Part shown: piece by piece, positions 44,073 through 48,706 of the stretch
How the letters are laid out: every line of letters begins with the position of its first letter
How positions within the stretch are numbered: the stretch's first letter is position 1
Assembly (NCBI RefSeq): GCF_008124615.1
Contig: NZ_VNIB01000003.1
Span: 124,001-188,000 of the forward strand
Reading direction: 5' to 3'
Origin: Geothermobacter ehrlichii
GTDB lineage: Bacteria; Desulfobacterota; Desulfuromonadia; Desulfuromonadales; Geothermobacteraceae
DNA: 64,000 bases
The notes under the pieces: model-generated
What the model was told of the DNA's origin: nothing
The model's database searches: none
What the model saw: only the letters and a program-made list of their open reading frames with translations
Program-made: the position numbers and the translations under genes

Positions 44073-45377
44073 TCAGGATTCCAGGTAGCGGGGAATCACT
44101 TCGGCCAGGGTCTGGAAAATCCGGGTGAAGGTCTGCTCGTCCCGCTCCAGCAGGGTGATGCGGAACCCGAGTTCGGGGGTCGAGAAGGAGGAGAGGGGAA
44201 CGACGCAGATGCCGGTCGAGGCCAGCAGGTAGTAGACGAAGCGTTTGTCGAGGGTCATGCCCGGTTCGGCGACCAGTTTTTCCACCAGCTGCCGGACGCC
44301 GTCGTTGTCGATGGGCAGGGTCTGGTCGTGGCGCAGCCGGCCGCGCTCGAAGATCACGCTCATGTAGAAGGCGCCGTTGGTCCGGTTGACCTCGATGCCG
44401 GGCACGTCCTTGAGCAGGTCGTAGGCGATGTTGGAGAACTTTTCGTAGCGCGCCTTGCGCTCCTCGAGCCAGCCGGGATATTTCGGATGGCTGAGAATCA
44501 GCGGAATCGCCTTCTGCGGCAGGGTGGTCGAGCAGACCTCGACCATCTTCGAGTCGACAATGCTCTGGATGTAGCGGGCGAAGACCGGATCCTTGTCGGC
44601 GTTGTAGACCTCGATCCAGCCGCAGCGCGAGCCGGGCCAGGGTACTTCCTTGCTGATCCCCTTCATCGAGATCGCCGGCACGTCCCCCACCAGGTCGGAG
44701 ATCGGCCGGGACGACTGCCCGTTGTAGATGAGATTCATGTAGATTTCGTCGGCGATGATGAACAGATCGAACTCGCGGGCGATGGCGATCATTTCCCGCA
44801 GGATGCGCTCCGGGTAGACGGCGCCGGTCGGGTTGTCGGGATTGATGATCAGGATGCCGGCGATCGACGGATTGTACTTGACCGACAGCCGCAAATCGTC
44901 AAGGTCGGGGTACCAGTTGTTGTGGGGGTCGAGGCGGTAGGTGACCGGCTTCTGTCCCGAATGGGCTCCTTCGGCCGAGGAATGGGTCGAATAGGTGGGC
45001 GAGGGGCCGATCACCCGCGCCTCGCGCCGCAGCAGGCCGTAGACCTTCTGGATGGCGTCGCCCAGGCCGTTGAAGAAGATGATGTCTTCCGGCGTGATCT
45101 GGGCACCGCCGCGGGCGTTGTTCAGCTGCGCCAGAAATTCCCTGGTTTCGAGAACGCCCTTGGTGGCGCAGTAGCCGTAGGAGCAGTCCTTCATCGCCAG
45201 GTCGGCGACGATCTGCTTCATCCAGTCCGGAATCTTCTCCCCCTTGGCGATGGGGTCGCCGATATTCTCCATGTTGGTACGGATGCCGAGCTGCTGCAGC
45301 TTTTCGGCGATCTCGACGATGGCGCGGATTTCGTAGGTCCATTCCCCGGCGCCGATGTGGACGATGTTGTTGCGCAT
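44073..45377 (-). CDS. Class I/II PLP-dependent aminotransferase (candidate alanine-forming)
   Basis: 434 residues of fold-type I. The PLP lysine is K243 in MKGISKEVPWPGSRCGW; NPDNPTGAVYPE and IADEIYMNLIYNG are the expected cofactor-binding stretches. The family (COG0436) includes aspartate, alanine and other aminotransferases, and sequence alone does not fix the substrate. The preceding leader peptide is alanine-rich and ends at an attenuator, which suggests alanine synthesis from pyruvate and glutamate (inference). Its promoter must lie beyond the terminator at 45410-45438. Confidence 0.9.
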   Translation of the reverse strand: MRNNIVHIGAGEWTYEIRAIVEIAEKLQQLGIRTNMENIGDPIAKGEKIPDWMKQIVADLAMKDCSYGYCATKGVLETREFLAQLNNARGGAQITPEDIIFFNGLGDAIQKVYGLLRREARVIGPSPTYSTHSSAEGAHSGQKPVTYRLDPHNNWYPDLDDLRLSVKYNPSIAGILIINPDNPTGAVYPERILREMIAIAREFDLFIIADEIYMNLIYNGQSSRPISDLVGDVPAISMKGISKEVPWPGSRCGWIEVYNADKDPVFARYIQSIVDSKMVEVCSTTLPQKAIPLILSHPKYPGWLEERKARYEKFSNIAYDLLKDVPGIEVNRTNGAFYMSVIFERGRLRHDQTLPIDNDGVRQLVEKLVAEPGMTLDKRFVYYLLASTGICVVPLSSFSTPELGFRITLLERDEQTFTRIFQTLAEVIPRYLES

Positions 45378-45409
45378 GTCAGTCTCTCCTGCTTTGATGG
45401 GGCGACAAT

Positions 45410-45438
45410 AAAAAAGGCCATGGACGGTGCCATGGCCT
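45410..45438 (-). terminator. Attenuator terminator in the aminotransferase leader
   Basis: Minus strand AGGCCATGG, loop CACCGT, CCATGGCCT and TTTTTT: a nine-base-pair intrinsic terminator 33 bases before the start codon. It points only along the minus strand (no T tract on the other). Its 5' arm can instead pair with CATGGC in the end of the leader peptide gene (45470-45478). Confidence 0.85.
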
Positions 45439-45460
45439 GGTCAGTTCGTATCTGCCGTTA

Positions 45461-45577
45461 TCAGCAGACGCTGCCATGAACACACCCGTTCCCTGCGGCG
45501 TTTGCGGCCGCGGCGGTGGTAGCTCGTGCTGCGTTGGCAGCCGGCGACGGAATGGCGGATGCTTTGACGATGTTCAT
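45461..45577 (-). CDS. Alanine-rich leader peptide of the aminotransferase attenuator
   Basis: 38 codons from ATG 45577 to TGA 45461. It contains 13 alanines, 11 of them among residues 13-28 (AANAARATTAAAANAA). The first Ala pair (GCT GCC, positions 45541-45536) can pair with GGCAGC at the leader end, giving the protector stem of a classical attenuator. The start codon has no obvious ribosome site but lies about 12 bases after the expected transcript start. Not annotated by normal gene finding because of its size. Confidence 0.6.
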   Translation of the reverse strand: MNIVKASAIPSPAANAARATTAAAANAAGNGCVHGSVC

Positions 45578-45597
45578 GGCTCGCAATGTTATCGGGC

Positions 45598-45627
45598 TGG
45601 TTAGCACAGCCGGAACGTCTTTGTCAA
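45598..45627 (-). promoter_or_regulatory. Promoter of the leader-aminotransferase unit
   Basis: Minus strand TTGACA (45627-45622), 18-base spacer, TAACCA (45603-45598), just upstream of the leader peptide start at 45577. Confidence 0.6.
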
Positions 45628-45649: not shown

Positions 45650-46312
45650 TCAGAAGGGACGCCGCTTGCGCCGCGACAGCTTGCCGAGAATCCAGCCGAA
45701 GAAGAGCACACCGGCACCGGCGAGAAACCACTTGATGCTGCCTGTGGTCAGCAGGCTGGCGTTCTCTTCTTTGAGCCGCTCGACTTCTGTAGCCAGGTGG
45801 CCGTTCTCTTCCCGCAGCCGGTCGCGCTCCTGGGTCAGCTCAAGCAGATTGCGGGACGCTTCGAGCAGCTTCTGGTATTGCCGCGAGGTCTTGTCGAAGC
45901 GGGCCTTGTGCTGGGCCAGCTCCTCCTGCAGCCTGGCGTTGGCGGACTGCAGGGCAGCGAGCTGTTCGCGCATCTGGCTGTTGTCGTCGCTGGCGGCCGC
46001 AAGCTGCCGTTTCAGCTGTTCGATCTGCTGCGCCTGTTTCTGGATGGTGAACTTCTTCGGCGTCCGGTCGGTGATGTATTGCCTGAGGACGTAACCTTCC
46101 TTGCCGTCGGTGGTCCGTACCCGCAGAAACTTGCCTTCTTCGCCGAGAATCTCGACCCGGGTATCGGTCTTCAGATGGTCGAGGATTTCGTACTCGGCCG
46201 TCGGCGCCGAGCGGAGGGTCAGGACGAGCTGGTCAGTGACATAGCCGGTCTCCGCCGAGACGGCGGTGGCGGCCAGAAGCAGGCCAAGCAACAGGAAGGA
46301 CAGGCGAAGCAT
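45650..46312 (-). CDS. SH3-domain, coiled-coil, membrane-anchored protein (TIGR04211 type)
   Basis: 220 residues: signal peptide (to about residue 20), bacterial SH3 domain (TDQLVLTLRSAPTAEYEILDHL..GKEGYVLRQYIT), a long coiled coil (about 85-185, with AAASDDNSQMREQLAALQ), and a C-terminal transmembrane helix (WFLAGAGVLFFGWILG) with a basic end. It matches the YgiM/TIGR04211 architecture; the role is envelope-associated but unproven. Confidence 0.85.
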   Translation of the reverse strand: MLRLSFLLLGLLLAATAVSAETGYVTDQLVLTLRSAPTAEYEILDHLKTDTRVEILGEEGKFLRVRTTDGKEGYVLRQYITDRTPKKFTIQKQAQQIEQLKRQLAAASDDNSQMREQLAALQSANARLQEELAQHKARFDKTSRQYQKLLEASRNLLELTQERDRLREENGHLATEVERLKEENASLLTTGSIKWFLAGAGVLFFGWILGKLSRRKRRPF

Positions 46313-46497: not shown

Positions 46498-48603
46498 TCA
46501 GTTCTTTTGCCCGGTGTCGATCAGGTCGTCAAGAATGGCGGCCGCCTCGAGGGCGTAGGGATCTTTGCGCACGTTCTCACGCCAGCGCTCGAGCTTCTCG
46601 TCGTCGGTTCCGTCGAGCTCGTCTTCGCCCTGCATGCCGTCGTGGAAACGACCGTTTTTGCCCAGGCCGGCTTCCAGCTCTTCCCGCTGTTTGCGGGCCT
46701 GCTCCAGGTTGAGGCTGACTTCGCTCTTTTCACGCTGTTTTTTGGCCTCTTCGGCTTCCCGCGCGATCTGCTGGAATGCGTCGTTCTTGGTGACCCGTTC
46801 AGCGCTGCGGCGCTTCAGCTCGGCCGTGGGCAGGGGGAACGGTCGCCACGGTGTGTAGTCCGCCGGCTGCACGGTGTCCCAGGGCAGGGCGTAGTCGATG
46901 TATTTTTCGCCGCTTTCGACGTAGCGCATCCGGTCGGGCAGCTCCAGATCGGCCTCCACCCCCTTGGCCTGGGTCGAGCCGCCGCTGACGCGGTAGAATT
47001 TCTGGGTGGTGATCTTCAGGGCGCCGAGGGGCTTGTACTTGTCCATGTTGCGGAAGGGAATGGCCCGGTCGAGATCGAGAATGGTCTGGACCGTCCCTTT
47101 GCCGTAGGTGTGTTCGGAGCCGACGATCAGGGCCCGGTGGTAGTCCTGCAGAGCGGCGGTAAGGATTTCCGAGGCCGAGGCGCTGAAGCGGTTGACCAGC
47201 ACCACCATGGGACCGCCGTAGACGATGTCGTCGTCCTGGTCCTCAAGGACGCGGATCCGGCCGTTGCTGCTCTTGACCTGCACGATCGGTCCTTCCTCGA
47301 TGAACAGTCCCGAGATGTTGACGGCGTCGGTCAGGGCGCCGCCGCCGTTGTTGCGCAAATCGAGGATCAGCCCCGCCACCTTCTGCTTCTTCAGCTCTTC
47401 GAGGGCCTTTTTCACATCGTCGGTGACGTTACGCCCCGTCCCCCCCTGGAGCCGGCTTTTGAAATCGCGGTAGAAGCTCGGAATCTTCACGTAGCCGAAG
47501 GTGCGGCCGCTCTTCGGATCGTCGAGGGTGGTCCAGCGGACGAAGGTCTCTTCGATCTCGACTACGTCGCGGACGATGGCGATGACCTTGGTCTTGCCGC
47601 TCGGCTTGCGGACCGTCAGCCGCACCTCCGTCCCCTTGGGACCGCGGATCAGCTCCACCGCGTCGCGCAGCCGGGTGTCGGTGACGTCGACCGGATCCTC
47701 GTCTCCCTGACCGACGGCGAGGATGATGTCCTCGGCTTCGAGCTCGCCCTGGCGGGCGGCGGCGCTGCCGGGAATGATGCGGACCACCTTGATGAAGCCG
47801 TCCTCCTCCCTCAGGGTGGCGCCGATACCTTCGAGGGAGCCGCGCATGCCGATTTCGAAGTCTTCCTTCTGCTTCGGCGCAAAGTAGGTGGTGTGCGGGT
47901 CGAAGGCCCTGGCGATGGCGTTGAAGTAGCGGTCGTAGTGATCCTGCAGAGTGTCCTTGAGCAGACGTTCGAAAAAGTTGTTGAACCGCTTGCCGATCTT
48001 TTCGCGCGCCTCGGCCTGGGTCGGCGTTTTTTTGCCGCTGTCTTTCGCAGTTTTGTCGTCTTGCTCAAGGGTCAGCATGCGGACCAGAACCTGGTATTTG
48101 AGAATCTTGCGCCAGCGTTCCCGCAACTCCTTTTCGTTTTTGCACCAGTCGAGTTTTTCCGGGTCGGTTTCCATCCGCTCGTCGCGGCTGAAGTCGAACT
48201 TCTGCTGCAGGATCTCGCGGGCCATGGTCTGCACCTGGCGGATGCGTTTTTCGATCAGCTTGCCGGCGATGACCGGCAGTTCGATGCGTCCCTGGTTGAT
48301 CTCGTCGTCGATGCGGTCGGCATAGACCTTCAGCTGCTCGACGTCGCGGGCGAGCAGAAAGCGTTTCTGGAAGTCGAGCTGTTTCAGATAGAGGTCGAAG
48401 GCGGCCTTCGACAGGTTGTCGTCGAAGGTCTTGCCGCTGAAATGGTGCTGGGTCAGCTGTTGGCGCAGAACGTAACTCAGCAGCCGGGCGCGGCTGGCGA
48501 CCTGGTCGTCGCTTTGTTGGGGCTGGGCGAAAGCAGGGCCGGTGACGAGGGTGGCCAGCAGAAGGACGGGCAGGCAGAGACGCAGAAGTGTACGCATGTT
48601 CAT
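46498..48603 (-). CDS. prc: Tail-specific (C-terminal processing) protease
   Basis: 701 residues with a signal peptide (LPVLLLATLVTGPAFA). Domain order: N-terminal DUF3340-like helical region, PDZ domain (GIGATLREEDGFIKVVRIIPGSAA..), then the S41 catalytic domain with VNRFSASASEIL (Ser) and HTYGKGTVQ (Lys), as in E. coli Prc. The C-terminal 150 residues are helical and charged. It degrades or trims envelope proteins from their C termini in the periplasm. Confidence 0.95.
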   Translation of the reverse strand: MNMRTLLRLCLPVLLLATLVTGPAFAQPQQSDDQVASRARLLSYVLRQQLTQHHFSGKTFDDNLSKAAFDLYLKQLDFQKRFLLARDVEQLKVYADRIDDEINQGRIELPVIAGKLIEKRIRQVQTMAREILQQKFDFSRDERMETDPEKLDWCKNEKELRERWRKILKYQVLVRMLTLEQDDKTAKDSGKKTPTQAEAREKIGKRFNNFFERLLKDTLQDHYDRYFNAIARAFDPHTTYFAPKQKEDFEIGMRGSLEGIGATLREEDGFIKVVRIIPGSAAARQGELEAEDIILAVGQGDEDPVDVTDTRLRDAVELIRGPKGTEVRLTVRKPSGKTKVIAIVRDVVEIEETFVRWTTLDDPKSGRTFGYVKIPSFYRDFKSRLQGGTGRNVTDDVKKALEELKKQKVAGLILDLRNNGGGALTDAVNISGLFIEEGPIVQVKSSNGRIRVLEDQDDDIVYGGPMVVLVNRFSASASEILTAALQDYHRALIVGSEHTYGKGTVQTILDLDRAIPFRNMDKYKPLGALKITTQKFYRVSGGSTQAKGVEADLELPDRMRYVESGEKYIDYALPWDTVQPADYTPWRPFPLPTAELKRRSAERVTKNDAFQQIAREAEEAKKQREKSEVSLNLEQARKQREELEAGLGKNGRFHDGMQGEDELDGTDDEKLERWRENVRKDPYALEAAAILDDLIDTGQKN

Positions 48604-48706
48604 TTTCCGTTTCGGCAGGAGATGTTCCGAAGGCGCTTTCGGCAAATCAATGCGAAAGACTACCACAGCAGAGGCGGCTGCGGCAAACGCAGCTGGGATC
48701 TTTGGG

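Follow-up and report, generated by a model that had tools for sequence, protein, structure and literature searches.

A candidate alanine leader attenuator ahead of an aminotransferase gene in Geothermobacter ehrlichii and related bacteria

Is the aminotransferase gene that lies at 44073-45377 on the minus strand of the Geothermobacter ehrlichii DNA analysed here (64 000 nucleotides in all, the window, whose positions are used throughout) controlled through a short alanine-rich leader peptide? An initial annotation, made from the letters alone, had proposed as much, and each part that it named is present in the sequence. Reading along the minus strand, a promoter-like site (45598-45627; TTGACA at 45627-45622, an 18-nt spacer and TAACCA at 45603-45598), recognized from the sequence and with its pattern kept in relatives, precedes a leader ORF of 38 codons, MNIVKASAIPSPAANAARATTAAAANAAGNGCVHGSVC (45461-45577, with ATG at 45577 and TGA at 45463-45461). 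Thirteen of these codons specify alanine, 11 of them within residues 13-28 (45494-45541), which form the putative control region. A terminator hairpin, AGGCCATGG-caccgt-CCATGGCCT, follows at 45438-45415 and is continued by a T run. Its 5' arm is element 3 (45430-45438), while its 3' arm (45423-45415) and the T run make up element 4 (45410-45423), both located by pair counts and a terminator scan. Element 2, TGTTCATGGC (45473-45482), lies near the end of the leader ORF, where its CATGGC can pair with GCCATG of element 3; it was delimited as a block of aligned columns in 76 leaders and by counts of 2:3 pairs. Only 32 nt separate the T run from the aminotransferase ATG (45377), a gap that holds the ribosome-binding site of the gene, AGGAGAG (45384-45390). 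The GC content around the locus is 61-69%. The upstream neighbour at 45650-46312 encodes an SH3-domain protein (TIGR04211), and a carboxy-terminal processing protease is encoded farther upstream (46498-48666).

Conservation of the leader and its alanine codons in orthologues had been named as a check on the proposal, and it was borne out. All 78 genomes of our first search match the enzyme; two that do so distantly only (G048, G074) and one in which the gene start is missing (G077) were left out, giving 75 loci with a readable start. An Ala-rich ORF and a terminator stand upstream of the aminotransferase in 68 of them, the window's own included (67 called by script, and L036, where the script chose the wrong hairpin, by the covariance model R1 described below, E 4.6e-12). 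The seven loci without the leader all belong to family f18 (L007, L014, L019, L023, L025, L046 and L075); in L007 and L014 a similar promoter lies close to the gene, as if the leader had been deleted. Adding 80 named loci, many from the same genomes, brought the set to 155 loci with 119 distinct upstream regions, five loci being left out for upstream DNA that was too short. The arrangement was called by script in 87 of the 119 regions, plus L036; Geothermobacter hydrogeniphilus (L077) and Desulfuromusa kysingii (L126) are among the carriers. Orders, class and phylum are assigned here from the titles of the named loci. The remaining 31 regions comprise the seven f18 loci, L110, L132 and other groups (titled, for example, Desulfobacterales and Desulfobulbaceae). 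Alanine makes up 28% of the residues in 121 leaders, and a run of putative control codons for one amino acid is found in the leader, with the Ala run conserved in the aligned sequences.

We built R1 from an alignment (A1) of 76 non-redundant leaders, taken from the 87, to which L036 does not belong, after 11 near-identical leaders had been left out. R1 matches 185 of the 244 genomes of the class at E <= 0.01, and the aminotransferase gene was found in 229 of the 244 at E <= 1e-100. Where site and gene could be compared, the R1 site shared the strand of the aminotransferase and preceded it by 15-280 nt in 109 of 109 cases (118 R1 rows with a listed gene were taken, nine of which had no gene row). 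The window's own genome holds a single significant R1 site (E 2.8e-11; the next has E 0.27). Beyond the order of the window, an Ala leader was recognized by script or by eye in 39 of 40 regions read from another order of the class, 27 of them picked by their R1 site and 13 by the gene (nine of these 13 genomes with an R1 match and four without). Automatic calling succeeded in 37 of the 40, the leaders of L218 and L219 were seen by eye, and L221 is the one left. In this order the terminator core is mostly GGCCGTGGG in place of GGCCATGG, with element 2 altered to match, and the 2:3 helix of L227 reaches 11 bp. A shorter leader with one run of about five Ala codons near the stop codon occurs in L222-L226, L230 and L232, and element 2 is placed differently in these short forms.

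Upstream of the leader, the pattern TTGAC-N13-17-TGNTA occurs in 114 of 121 loci compared with 0.25% in shuffles, the pattern having been composed after inspection of the sequences. A generic sigma-70 scan of the window called no promoter at 45598-45627. The distance from an R1 site to the gene can be as short as 15 nt, which leaves no space there for a second promoter; the initial annotation had placed any promoter beyond the terminator. A putative promoter, marked by this conserved pattern, is thus found ahead of the short leader ORF.

The terminator covaries strongly across the aligned leaders. In A1, 96.9% of the 3:4 cells are paired, with 47 both-side changes compared with 7.9 in shuffled alignments, and a predicted intrinsic terminator is found between leader and gene. 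The antiterminator appears to covary more modestly. In A1, 73.9% of the 2:3 cells are paired, compared with 33-44% in controls in which the partner segment was slid, and the covariation score is 0.243 compared with 0.198 in shuffled alignments (0/500 as high) and 0.095-0.117 in the slid ones. Both-side changes number 55 against 27.5 in shuffles (0/500), and one slid control, at -3, is equal in effect with 54. The number of 2:3 pairs with a both-side change was reached by 19/500 shuffles and the number of pair types by 67/500. One inner pair is unpaired in 68 of the 76 leaders, and the outer AAG/CTT pairs are unpaired in 32-37 of them. In a second alignment of mixed leaders (A2), 84.4% of the 2:3 cells are paired compared with 31-48% in slid controls; its both-side count of 13 lies inside the slid range of 1-14. 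Because the relatedness of the sequences inflates such covariation counts, we added a test in which partners were swapped between loci. Own 2:3 partners gave -13.30 kcal/mol compared with -11.69 kcal/mol for swapped ones, with 0/2000 permutations as good, and were better in 58 of 76 loci. In the other order, the values were -15.86 and -14.98 kcal/mol (3/2000 as good). When element 2 was chosen freely from a 75-nt tail by duplex strength, the mean z was -0.81 and 17 of 87 leaders had at most 5 of 100 shuffles as good; these z-scores are weak because element 3, a palindrome, finds partners in many GC-rich segments. Taken together, the measurements point to an antiterminator that would exclude the terminator, with the proviso that both-side counts alone do not surpass every slid control.

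The protector stem 1:2 is the weak point. In the window, element 1 (GCCATGAACA, 45571-45580), assigned from duplex and fold calculations, overlaps the leader start and can form a 10-bp helix with element 2 at the leader end (-19.4 kcal/mol, z -2.2 relative to codon shuffles). The segments proposed earlier to pair, GCTGCC (45541-45536, an alternative element 1) with GGCAGC, and CATGGC with GCCATG of the terminator's 5' arm, do exist as complements in the window. The minimum-energy fold of the window differs in that the leader start GCCATGAAC (45580-45572) pairs with GTTCATGGC at the leader end, the terminator being kept; its z is -3.03 and 0/200 shuffles were equally good. Among orthologues, the position of element 1 is not conserved, own 1:2 partners are scarcely above swapped ones (24/2000 permutations as good), and leaders fare no better on average than codon-shuffled versions of themselves (mean z -0.18). 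The 1:2 stem is therefore, on comparison of the loci, weakly supported. Of the compensatory changes that had been predicted for all three stems, those in 3:4 were found and are strong, those in 2:3 were found by most measures, and the 1:2 stem has weak support.

Between the end of the last Ala codon and element 2 there is a median gap of 10 nt (Ala codons that start at most 6 nt from element 2 being excluded), so that a ribosome stalled in the Ala run would leave most of element 2 free, and one at the stop codon would cover much of it. In 91 of 121 leaders, element 2, defined by its best duplex, falls entirely inside the stretch from -24 to +12 around the stop codon. We also modelled folding with the ribosome placed on the leader, using 121 leaders after three of 124 had been dropped. 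When the ribosome occupies a middle Ala codon and element 4 is still to be transcribed, a 2:3 helix of at least 5 bp is expected in 88% of the leaders, compared with 28% when the spacer is shuffled. Placing the ribosome on the stop codon gives the terminator in 121 of 121, an expected outcome since element 2 is then masked. The 2:3 helix of the window itself is short, with an expected 5.5 bp for a stall at the first Ala codon, 8.1 bp at the last and 1.4 bp at a middle one.

The 434-residue aminotransferase scores 744.9 bits against NCBIfam NF005334 (PRK06855; curated cut-off 443) and 189.2 bits against the alanine aminotransferase family NF006230 (PRK08363), below the cut-off of 534. Its best solved homologues are E. 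coli AlaA (4cvq, 170 bits) and 1xi9, a 'putative transaminase' (156 bits); solved tyrosine and aspartate aminotransferases score 101 and 70 bits. Alanine dehydrogenase is also encoded in the genome, and the enzyme may therefore not be the sole source of alanine. G. sulfurreducens GSU1242 was dropped as an orthologue because PMC2700814 describes it as an aspartate aminotransferase homologue. The earlier suggestion of an alanine-forming enzyme gains from the closeness to AlaA and from the agreement between codons and pathways in the related leaders described next; most likely the enzyme makes alanine from pyruvate.

Searches outside the class revealed similar element 2-3-4 cores ahead of other genes. 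R1 matched 74 of 345 genomes of the phylum at E <= 0.001, and a core model, R2, matched 44 of 55 genomes of another class at E <= 1e-4. We read 49 of these sister loci (20 from the R1 and 29 from the R2 search), calling leaders by a composition test (p < 1e-4, uncorrected for windows) and genes by comparison with reference proteins. Gene and leader were both callable in 35 of the 49, and for all 35 the leader residue fits the pathway, to be read with the facts that the gene calls are NCBIfam-anchored for part of the set, that the reference proteins come from the same loci and that R1 and R2 select for such cores. Among them, Leu leaders precede LeuA in 15 loci and an oxoacid oxidoreductase gamma subunit in one; Phe/Tyr leaders precede DAHP or ADH synthase in seven and PaaK in one; Trp leaders precede TrpE in three and indolepyruvate oxidoreductase in four; and Ala leaders precede the window-type aminotransferase in four, all of these four outside the class. 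For biosynthetic genes outside the class, the residue fits the pathway in 29 of 29 callable loci, the four window-type enzymes included. In seven of the 49 the gene was called and the leader was not (L320, three leuA, one DAHP synthase, dapA and the PRK06836 aminotransferase); by eye, the dapA leader is Lys-rich and that of PRK06836 has a Phe run. For another seven no gene was assigned; a Leu or Phe/Tyr leader was called in two of these. Similar-core leader attenuators, with codons that fit the downstream gene, were noted in other classes of the phylum at L267-L282 and L292-L319.

Some of these leaders bear on the genes behind them. Indolepyruvate ferredoxin oxidoreductase is usually regarded as degradative. 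Trp-run leaders stand ahead of its alpha-subunit gene in L306, L311, L313 and L318, which hints that it may work toward the synthesis of tryptophan or aromatic amino acids in these bacteria. A Phe-rich leader ahead of the phenylacetate-CoA ligase (PaaK) gene in L309 likewise hints at a biosynthetic role for PaaK. In the window's own genome, three weak R2 sites (E 0.004-0.02) showed no such leader by eye. A reading of R1 as a model of generic terminators was considered and set aside: nine secondary matches were found in relatives, of which eight were readable and most were gene ends or intragenic by eye, L252 being ambiguous and L262 the unread ninth.

The likeness of the cores raises the question of a modular attenuator, in which one RNA core (element 2 resembling TGCCCATCGCCTT, terminator resembling AAGGCCATGGGC..GCTCATGGCCTT) would have been copied among operons of the phylum with the control codons alone swapped (Ala, Leu, Trp, Phe/Tyr and perhaps Lys). 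We put this forward tentatively, as a possibility that we rather doubt. A model of that very core served to find the loci, which favours likeness. The shared core could have been inherited from a common ancestor, or separate leaders could have converged on one favourable pairing.

The sister locus L320 has an Ala run ahead of an AlaC-like transaminase, whose best family is alanine transaminase PRK08175 (509 bits, below the cut-off of 647). The run is present in 11 of 11 orthologues with a readable start (L320's own locus included; L322-L332; 75-100% identity over the start), a twelfth close match, G600, being left out as its gene start is missing. Among paralogues of about 50% identity for which loci were available, it occurs in 0 of 19. 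For the AlaC-like leader a separate 2:3 pairing was identified (mean -17.1 compared with -13.3 when shuffled), formed by the same segment in 10 of the 11 loci, with L324 the exception. Apparently, then, this gene carries an independent alanine attenuator.

We consider it very probable that the window leader is a ribosome-mediated transcription attenuator of the trp/his type, with alanine as the control codon, that senses charged tRNA-Ala and controls an enzyme most likely to form alanine. The classical 1:2 / 2:3 / 3:4 scheme proposed in the initial annotation thus finds support, weak in the case of its first stem. Transcription would begin just upstream of the leader ORF, at the conserved promoter pattern, with a ribosome trailing RNA polymerase along the leader. 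With ample charged tRNA-Ala, the ribosome would reach the stop codon and cover element 2, 3:4 would pair, and transcription would end before the aminotransferase. With charged tRNA-Ala scarce, the ribosome would stall in the Ala run, just ahead of element 2; element 2, left free, would pair with element 3 before transcription reaches element 4, and the polymerase would continue into the gene. The stall on uncharged tRNA-Ala and the direction of the response are what we infer from parts whose presence, conservation and, for 2:3 and 3:4, pairing and covariation are observed.

Other explanations share some of these observations. One is chance, as DNA of 61-69% GC might yield an Ala run beside a terminator. 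We surveyed 30 orthologous loci (258 036 bases over both strands, 1760 short ORFs): 18 Ala-rich ORFs (at least seven Ala in 16 residues) occur elsewhere in them, none with a terminator behind it, whereas the pair stands at the expected position in 24 of the 30 loci. The genome, moreover, has one significant R1 site. Because the arrangement is conserved we take chance to be refuted, its remaining probability being negligible; judged by this comparison of loci, the arrangement is not due to chance. That the ORF keeps its position might instead mean that it encodes a functional micropeptide, the terminator being an ordinary one with read-through. Yet the peptides, the Ala run apart, diverge, and the last part of the ORF pairs with a terminator arm. 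Substitutions over the last nine codons are about equal at the three codon positions (114/134/111), and those in upstream codons (404/359/555, from leader pairs that are not independent) put the third position modestly ahead. We regard a micropeptide as extremely improbable.

A nascent Ala-rich peptide might also arrest the ribosome in response to a small molecule and not to uncharged tRNA-Ala, as the long Ala runs of many leaders, often with an Arg inside the run (ARA), would allow. By eye, however, the peptides diverge widely outside the Ala run and the RNA-constrained end, Arg is missing from the run in L010, L013, L040 and L059, and runs of Leu, Trp or Phe/Tyr stand in place of Ala in sister leaders whose core is similar, as sensing of tRNA predicts. 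Arrest of this kind seems to us very unlikely. A further possibility is that the leader does sense alanine while the enzyme mainly makes another amino acid, alanine serving as a proxy, for instance for pyruvate or nitrogen state. The general NCBIfam name of the enzyme, the missed alanine aminotransferase cut-off and the presence of alanine dehydrogenase would all suit such a proxy; against it stand the nearer relationship to AlaA than to tyrosine or aspartate aminotransferases, the fit of residue to pathway in every callable biosynthetic locus outside the class, and the second Ala leader on the AlaC-like transaminase. On balance we think it unlikely, and an attenuator in the service of alanine synthesis remains the reading that we prefer.

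If this reading is true, alanine supply would be controlled by attenuation in a large group of environmental bacteria that, judged from the named loci, are related to Geobacter and Desulfuromonas. Cores of similar type upstream of leu, trp and aromatic genes would offer a handle for mapping amino-acid control in the phylum and an aid in naming its uncertain aminotransferases, and, were the modular reading also true, they would form a phylum-wide set of amino-acid switches absent from Rfam.

How does the leader compare with known systems? T-box riboswitches read tRNA charging and use no leader peptide; the window system would resemble them in sensing tRNA charging and differ from them in having a leader peptide. 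A known riboswitch or T-box was set aside, as Rfam 15 gave no family at gathering score over the window element. At a loose threshold, two weak matches appeared there (17.6 bits with a gathering score of 59, and 14.1 bits with one of 100), and 14 related loci (nine with other codons, five with Ala leaders) gave two sub-gathering matches, neither over the element. Our literature search found no natural alanine leader attenuator, in a coverage that subscription papers mostly fall outside, so that an earlier description is possible. Alanine is absent among the amino acids served by leader attenuation in the accessible parts of PMC1183508, PMC4833913 and PMC1262725. The candidate attenuators of Actinobacteria (trp, ilvB, leuS and the LEU element of leuA) share leader peptides with cognate codons, and patterns in several of their pairings are conserved over large distances, according to PMC1262725; they differ in that the word alanine is absent from the text of that paper. 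Ala codons do occur in the attenuator leader of an engineered trpL reporter, a man-made construct in which, as PMC5039519 describes it, two Trp codons were replaced with two Ala codons so that the reporter is independent of tryptophan and reports translation inhibitors. The closest likeness in layout is to the trp, his, leu, thr, ilv and pheA attenuators of enterobacteria, which likewise have repeated cognate codons in a leader ORF and an antiterminator and a terminator that exclude each other, the latter placed between leader and gene; unlike these, the window leader has alanine codons, belongs to another phylum and has a weakly supported 1:2 stem. The mechanism would thus be classical, and what seems new, within the literature covered, is its specificity for alanine; this version is well conserved, a second case has apparently arisen independently, and similar cores stand before other operons.
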